The notes under the pieces were generated by a model. It did no database searches and was not told where the DNA came from. It worked only from the letters and a program-made list of their open reading frames with translations. 64,000 bases of DNA from Thermophilibacter provencensis (lineage in GTDB: Bacteria; Actinomycetota; Coriobacteriia; Coriobacteriales; Atopobiaceae): the NCBI RefSeq assembly GCF_030372065.1, contig NZ_JAUDEA010000005.1, positions 62,001-126,000 on the forward strand, in the 5' to 3' direction. The translations under genes and the position numbers were made by a program. Positions 50,023-50,613 of the stretch are shown here, in pieces (the stretch's first letter is position 1; every line of letters begins with the position of its first letter).

Positions 50023-50119
50023 TATGTACACTGTTGCAGGTTTGATGCTCTTCTCGCAAGTCTGTGACCTGCGGGTTTGTCGACGCTGACGCCCCGAAAA
50101 AGTTTCAACTGTGTACATA
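50023..50119. mobile_element. 97-bp element with TATGTACAC termini, copy A
   Basis: Begins TATGTACACTGTT and ends AACTGTGTACATA, terminal inverted repeats matching at 12 of 13 bases. Ungapped alignment with the reverse complement of 50517-50613 gives 81 of 97 identical positions. It carries no gene. No target-site duplication is evident (flanks AGGC and CCCT). Confidence 0.85.
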
Positions 50120-50145
50120 CCCTACAGACGGGCAGCAGTCTAATG

Positions 50146-50174
50146 AAAAAGGCCTCGGGAATGACCCCGAGACC
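50146..50174 (-). terminator. Terminator of tRNA-Pro
   Basis: Minus strand GGTCTCGGGG and CCCGAGGCC pair (one G-U) across TCATT, followed by TTTTTC. Confidence 0.85.
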
Positions 50175-50184
50175 CCTCAATTAC

Positions 50185-50261
50185 TGGTCGGGTGGACTGG
50201 ATTCGAACCAGCGACCCCTTGACCCCCAGTCAAGTGCGCTACCAAACTGCGCCACCACCCG
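50185..50261 (-). tRNA. tRNA-Pro (GGG)
   Basis: Acceptor CGGGTGG/CCACCCG, D-arm GCGC...GCGC, anticodon stem CTTGA/TCAAG with loop CTGGGGG (GGG), T-loop TTCGAAT, encoded CCA. A TAGAGT at minus-strand 50275-50280 with TTGCAT 17 bases further upstream may be its promoter. It is bracketed by the two inverted 97-bp elements. Confidence 0.95.
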
Positions 50262-50516
50262 TTTGCGAAGAAGTACTCTATCACTCCCTCATTTTGGATG
50301 CAAGAACAAAGTTCCGATTAATTGGACTGGAGATAAGATCCGCCGGGCTATATAAGGCAGTGCCGGGAGTCGAACCCCGTCGCGACGCCCGCACAGTGGG
50401 GAATGGATGCTACGGCCGCTACGCTCAAGACCTCCCCCCTCGCGCCTTGCTTCTTTCACAACATTCTTCTCGCTTCATAGCTCAACTTCTCTCACATGGT
50501 TGTGTCCAGTGGAGGG
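50262..50516. other. Non-coding stretch upstream of tRNA-Pro
   Basis: About 255 bases with the tRNA promoter region and two TTCTTCTCGC-like motifs; no gene supported. Confidence 0.5.
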
Positions 50517-50613
50517 TATGTACACAGTTGAAACTTTTTTGAGTTGCCAGTTCCGACAAACTCGCAGGTCAGCGCGTTGCGATAATAGCATCAAACCTGT
50601 AACAGTGTACATA
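50517..50613. mobile_element. 97-bp element with TATGTACAC termini, copy B (inverted)
   Basis: Same length and termini as copy A, in opposite orientation, 84 percent identical without gaps. Differences cluster in the middle (element positions 28-42 and 61-74); both ends are nearly unchanged. It lies 151 bases before serC. Confidence 0.85.

Follow-up and report, generated by a model that had tools for sequence, protein, structure and literature searches.

A genus-restricted intergenic palindrome of Thermophilibacter and Olsenella whose core inverts and is exchanged between conserved end-sites

The two inverted 97-bp repeats that bracket a tRNA-Pro gene in a 64,000-nucleotide stretch of the Thermophilibacter provencensis genome (hereafter the window) were found to be members of a genus-restricted, non-coding, dispersed family in gut actinobacteria (Thermophilibacter/Olsenella). 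The element is real, genus-specific and dynamic. Its copies are gained and lost between species, and its cores invert and exchange in place; a pure transposition account is therefore incomplete. Short palindromes between genes are as a rule listed as static transposon relics. Here the same docking sites were seen with flipped or replaced cores, and orthologous loci of related species make such palindrome dynamics measurable.

We could reproduce all coordinates of the preliminary description, which reported two 97-bp inverted copies with the tRNA gene between them. Copy 1 lies at 50023-50119 (+) and copy 2 at 50517-50613 (-); each is exactly 97 bp, and they align without gaps at 84% identity (E = 1e-23), the match running on to a 108-nt inverted pair with 83% identity. 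The terminal inverted repeats TATGTACACTGTT/AACTGTGTACATA match at 12/13 positions as claimed. These ends are real and inverted but were drawn too short: aligned copies revealed that the true ends are the inverted pair GAGGGTATGTACAC / GTGTACATACCCTC, with which copy 1 extends over 50020..50122 (+) and copy 2 over 50514..50616 (-). For the end-site, whose consensus is GGGTATGTACAC, copy 1 reads GGCTATGTACAC on the left (50020..50031, +) and the exact consensus on the right (50111..50122, -), and copy 2 has the exact consensus at 50514..50525 (+) and GTGTACATAACC, with one mismatch, at 50605..50616 (-). Copy 2 is also bounded by an additional GTGGAGG/CCTCCAC inverted match. Two motifs are conserved in the core, TTCTTCTCGGC and (T)GACCTGCGG. 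The first (motif A) is present in copy 1 as CTTCTCGC (50050..50057, +) and is the motif over-represented genus-wide; the second (motif B) is found in copy 1 as TGACCTGCGG (50065..50074, +) and in copy 2 at 50563..50571 (-), where it reads CGCAGGTCA on the plus strand. The tRNA-Pro(ggg) gene between both copies occupies 50185..50261 (-).

Across the family, the element has terminal inverted repeats and no coding capacity, as MITEs do. Measured from GGG to CCC, copies fall into length classes of 92-94 bp (81 copies), 102-105 bp (28) and 114-115 bp (2), which are steps of one helical turn, and the gap rate is 1.1% in the core vs 4.8% in the flanks. In one set of species the ends are iterated outward at a spacing of 22 bp (n=127) or 21 bp (n=14), and never at 23 bp, which was also allowed (n=0). 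Exactly one extra end-site per side was observed in 61 of 111 copies, and no extra site in 35 of 111, the window's own two among them. Both copies read in G021 bear GGGTACGTACAC at each end and have similar repeats nearby; the end sequence has therefore shifted there as a set.

A separate observation, which covers the whole window and loci of 30 congeners, concerns GGCGAGAAGRAC, which is hugely over-represented: in 171 kb, GCGAGAAGAAC was observed 36 times vs 1.3 expected and GCGAGAAGGAC 26 times vs 1.4. CGAGAAGRAC has a density of 0.33-0.50 per kb in the genus, similar to that of DNA uptake sequences, vs 0.006 per kb for viral contigs that are unrelated. Within coding DNA this motif lies in various frames and orientations, and it also forms inverted pairs; a CGAGAAG-type match was present in 114 of 135 element cores. 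The window further contains a different palindrome at 49776-49834 (GTTTTGGGCAACAAGTTTGATG...CATAAAACTTGTTGCCCAAAAC), which has TTTGATG and TCTCGC in common with long-type elements; its Rfam score for mir-9 is below threshold (E 9e-5) and is surely that of a hairpin matched by chance.

When copy 1 was used as a BLAST query, it matched 12 places in G000, the 2.23-Mb draft genome that holds the window. The exact two-ended pattern occurs there in 9 copies vs 0 for the reversed control pattern, and chance is therefore excluded. About 18 copies were recognisable in this genome from the searches and the loci examined. BLASTN with the 97-bp repeat, the check suggested at the outset, thus uncovered a dispersed family, to which the two copies noted, both real, belong. 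Exact end-sites were numerous in congeners (116 in G016, 80 in G010, 69 in G018, 58 in G006, 27 in G009 and 16 in G040). A scan of 84,980 species yielded 58 stretches matching GGGTATGTACAC-N60-90-GTGTACATACCC, and the carriers were only Thermophilibacter gallinarum, Olsenella An285, An290 and An293, and Atopobiaceae/Olsenella MAGs. Among 40 relatives, matches were confined to congeners (1 of 16 genera). A viral or phage carrier was considered and rejected: IMG/VR gave 0 paired end-site matches, and the 89 unpaired 14-mer hits there, which come from unrelated viruses, were taken as chance. Our literature search on the end sequence and on Collinsella/Olsenella repeats returned nothing relevant.

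All 83 distinct mapped copies are intergenic in DNA that is 86% coding, genes having been called with a finder trained on GC codon-position bias. Their spacers are codirectional in 48 cases, convergent in 21 and divergent in 14; convergent spacers hold 25% of copies vs 14% of spacer length. No orientation bias relative to genes was detected (25 vs 23), and the neighbours of the copies in G000 are unrelated housekeeping genes.

Orthologous spacers in three sister genomes (G013, G043 and G044) were located by flank fragments of the G000 copies. The element was absent from the sister spacers that could be aligned on both sides (L080, L075, L078, L072:9277 and L077). At one spacer that holds the element in G000, the three sisters share a different palindrome, TTTGCCCGATACCTCA...TGAGGTATCGGGCAAA (L361, L356 and L363 in G013, G043 and G044, respectively), so intergenic spacers serve as sockets into which palindromes of several families fit. 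Comparison of G010 with G006, G016 and G018, for which a dozen G010 copies supplied the flanks, gave 21 spacers with both flanks, 14 occupied and 7 empty. The variable presence predicted by a mobile reading was observed in both comparisons. The target duplication expected from empty sites was not: none was visible beside the copies, and the spacers of G013, G043 and G044 were too diverged or filled by other palindromes. At another place, G016 lacks the 783 bp that separate two direct copies. In G006 (L397), a spacer is ~0.9 kb longer than the element-bearing one of G010 and is bounded by GGGGTAACTGTCCCAC palindromes; it may be a complete transposon-like unit.

At the tRNA-Pro locus itself, an intact pair near serC/tRNA-Pro was absent from every other congener checked. 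Decayed relics of both window copies persist in G013, the nearest sister (SerC 99% identical), and the tRNA-Pro gene with its promoter and terminator is inverted between these relics. The preliminary description had held that a pair always present at homologous positions, with covarying stems, would speak for a fixed RNA or regulatory site; the relatives hold no such conserved pair bracketing tRNA-Pro as a functional unit. Within the corresponding regions of 30 congeners (L108-L137), 23 have the tRNA upstream of serC, 7 in minus and 16 in plus orientation. Since the orientation varies also among congeners without the element, the element is not necessarily the cause in G013. In G043, the same tRNA-Pro is bracketed by two inverted copies of an unrelated palindromic repeat, TGACAAATGGGGACGGAGGCG... 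(L110, ~1070-1145 and ~1310-1390).

Further evidence on how the element evolves came from orthologous copies. Over 14 shared spacers, outer end-sites diverged by 5.8% and inner ends by 4.8%, vs 19.6% for the spacers between end-sites and 21.6% for near flanks. The outer sites, which were not used in choosing copies, showed 16/276 differences; the flanks had 265/1226 (Fisher p = 2e-11) and the spacers separating the end-sites 45/230 (p = 2e-6). Because the outer sites are far less diverged than the flanks, this constraint, without ASCERTAINMENT, means that the sites are selected or continually renewed; conserved ends around a variable interior, as for recognition sites, had already been noted in the two window copies. 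The remaining core diverges by 37%, faster than the flanks, partly because it is turned round in several pairs, in which it matches the reverse complement at 86-93%. Under a strict rule, in-place core inversion was found at 5 of 27 orthologous loci (8, 10, 13, 18 and 22) in genomes that are mostly metagenome-assembled, the end arms being shorter than usual assembly k-mers and misassembly still possible. The inverted cores are 84-93% identical to the reverse complement, with no change of orientation in flanks or outer sites. An293 vs An285, both recorded under isolate names, are among the genomes whose cores are inverted relative to each other at locus 18. Outer spacers stay on their own side wherever they can be distinguished, and the breakpoints of inversion therefore lie within the inner 12-14 bp. 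Differences in core orientation were seen between species only. As a control, other inverted repeats were inverted at 0 of 11 loci vs ~6 of 24 for the element (p = 0.15), a comparison that is too small to tell passive inversion from enzymatic and that speaks slightly against an entirely passive process.

Cores were also replaced. At locus 1, the core of G006 is unrelated to those of G010 and G016 while outer sites and spacers correspond, and the cores of G010 and G016 are 99% identical vs 92% for their flanks. At locus 9, the core of G006 is likewise unrelated to those of G016 and G018. Flanks at these two loci are 92-98% identical; further cases of unrelated cores, in more distant species, could be ordinary divergence. 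Similar cores were found at unrelated loci, for example with 95.7% identity within G016, and one core family occupies 13 loci in five species.

How these changes arise can be read in several ways. With roughly even chances of being right, we favor an intergenic palindrome, non-coding and confined to one genus, that behaves like the Correia repeat enclosed elements (CREE) of Neisseria, its ends serving as putative protein-binding sites and recombination points. A candidate protein binding the ends in trans would explain why >100 copies share one sequence, why the spacing is 22 bp and why the phase is fixed. Inversion and core exchange would arise by recombination of the inverted ends, which are short and identical: when template switching or short-homology gene conversion involves the two ends of a single copy, it may invert the core, the same process between two copies may exchange cores in either orientation, and a longer-range version between two inverted copies might produce large inversions, such as that of the tRNA-Pro segment in G013. 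We consider a dedicated invertase less probable. This explanation is weakened by the 70-80 bp spacer, which is long for template switching. An ordinary MITE, mobilized by a transposase in trans that is now lost or unrecognised, would share the inverted ends, the dispersed, non-coding and genus-restricted character, and the gain and loss at orthologous spacers, and would fit the fact that each window copy has the other as its closest relative; inversion and replacement would then be by-products, or the result of hot sites being hit by insertion more than once. However, an autonomous or IS-sized element with these ends, anticipated in the preliminary description, was found neither in the own genome nor among one-sided candidates in congeners, all of them draft genomes, and almost every end-site has a partner at the same fixed, short distance. 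Independent insertion also fails to account for conserved outer sites and spacers round a replaced core and for the constraint on resident end-sites, and we judge the MITE account rather improbable. With no partner transposon and no target duplication found, the element is at most a possible MITE. Y1/RAYT mobilisers were rejected too: Y1 transposases are present in 28 of 31 genomes of the genus, and no Y1 locus examined has these ends.

Dedicated site-specific recombination, in which one recombinase at the inner GGGTATGTACAC sites inverts and exchanges cassettes with the 22-bp outer sites as accessories, would cover both inversion and exchange with a single enzyme. Breakpoints limited to the inner 12-14 bp, helical-turn lengths and a 22-bp spacing suited to a nucleoprotein synapse, and the lack of inversion at other inverted repeats (0/11 loci) agree with it. 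Against it, G010 has no serine recombinase match despite its 80 exact end-sites, and G040, which carries the element, has only two tyrosine-recombinase matches, both scoring in the XerC/XerD class. Among tyrosine recombinases, only high-scoring ones of the Xer class were common to all carriers examined, the end-sites do not resemble an 11-6-11 Xer site, and no recombinase gene was present among the flanking genes examined; a dedicated serine or tyrosine recombinase was rejected as a candidate, and this reading seems unlikely to us. In the window, an Xer-type tyrosine recombinase (8225-9145, +) adjoins a probable trmFO (6879-8228), the usual neighborhood of XerC. In its boldest form, which we also hold to be doubtful, a single candidate recombinase would flip and exchange dozens of 70-80 bp non-coding cassettes between 22-bp GAGGGTATGTACAC docking repeats; if true, an enzyme-driven cassette system would reshuffle intergenic DNA across the genome. 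The family offers a natural test of what drives inversion and exchange, a hidden recombinase or nothing more than short ends of identical sequence. Far less probable is an immobile regulatory or architectural DNA site, such as an operator or a nucleoid-protein site. The constrained outer end-sites at orthologous copies, the constant helical phase, and the strictly intergenic location with an excess in convergent spacers would suit such a site, but its presence differs among close species, its copies show no orientation bias to genes and lie beside unrelated housekeeping genes, and cores are copied between unrelated loci. We give hardly any credence to a structured RNA or transcription terminator. 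Single copies do fold better than shuffles, owing to their ends, whereas RNAalifold paired only the ends, and on both strands, in alignments of 81 short and 28 long copies, thus giving no conserved fold in the core. Covariation of the spacers between tandem end-sites did not go beyond the consensus (p = 0.064), the element has no strand bias, and the Rfam scan gave nothing beyond tRNA and the sub-threshold match to the neighboring hairpin. Of the initial choice between a mobile element and a structured RNA, what holds is a non-coding multi-copy element with recognition-site-like ends and turnover; an autonomous partner, a target duplication and a fixed RNA were not found.

Several known systems share features with the element. 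MITEs such as ERIC and RUP are likewise non-coding and intergenic, with terminal inverted repeats and genome-variable presence (PMC10969869); the element differs in having no same-ended partner transposon or target duplication and in cores that invert and swap in place. REP/BIME sequences with their RAYTs are also multi-copy extragenic palindromes, and Y1 transposases are common in the genus, but every RAYT gene has inverted REPs of its own on both sides (PMC2817692) and the Y1 loci examined here lack the element ends. Invertons consist of a short segment between inverted repeats that is found in both orientations (PMC11892184), whereas here the whole cassette belongs to a dispersed repeat family, the segment is only 69-81 bp, the carriers examined share no dedicated invertase, and any promoter would be hypothetical. 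Template switching at short inverted repeats inverts spacers of a few bp and homogenises the arms (PMC8604942). Spacer inversion with conserved or homogenised arms is common to both, but here the spacers are 70-80 bp, inversion is recurrent in one sequence-specific family, and core exchange occurs as well.

The closest likeness is to the CREE/nemis of Neisseria. CREE are intergenic palindromes of 104-157 bp, in classes of 104-108 or 153-157 bp, with a conserved core, a genus-restricted distribution and a link to rearrangement (PMC2649163, PMC10969869). They are reported to invert in place (PMC10969869; attributed to Elbeyioglu et al. 2016 in PMC5874624). The element resembles them in its inverted ends, conserved core, length classes, intergenic location and genus restriction, and its cores were likewise found inverted in place (between species). 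In contrast, it belongs to a different phylum and ends in GAGGGTATGTACAC rather than in the 26-bp Correia repeat; its end-sites iterate outward at 22 bp and its cores exchange between conserved outer sites, features for which we found no description for CREE in the literature. It also differs in that no target duplication was found and 0 of 83 copies lie inside genes. By this comparison, the element appears to work like CREE without being one, an actinobacterial counterpart to the Correia elements of Neisseria.
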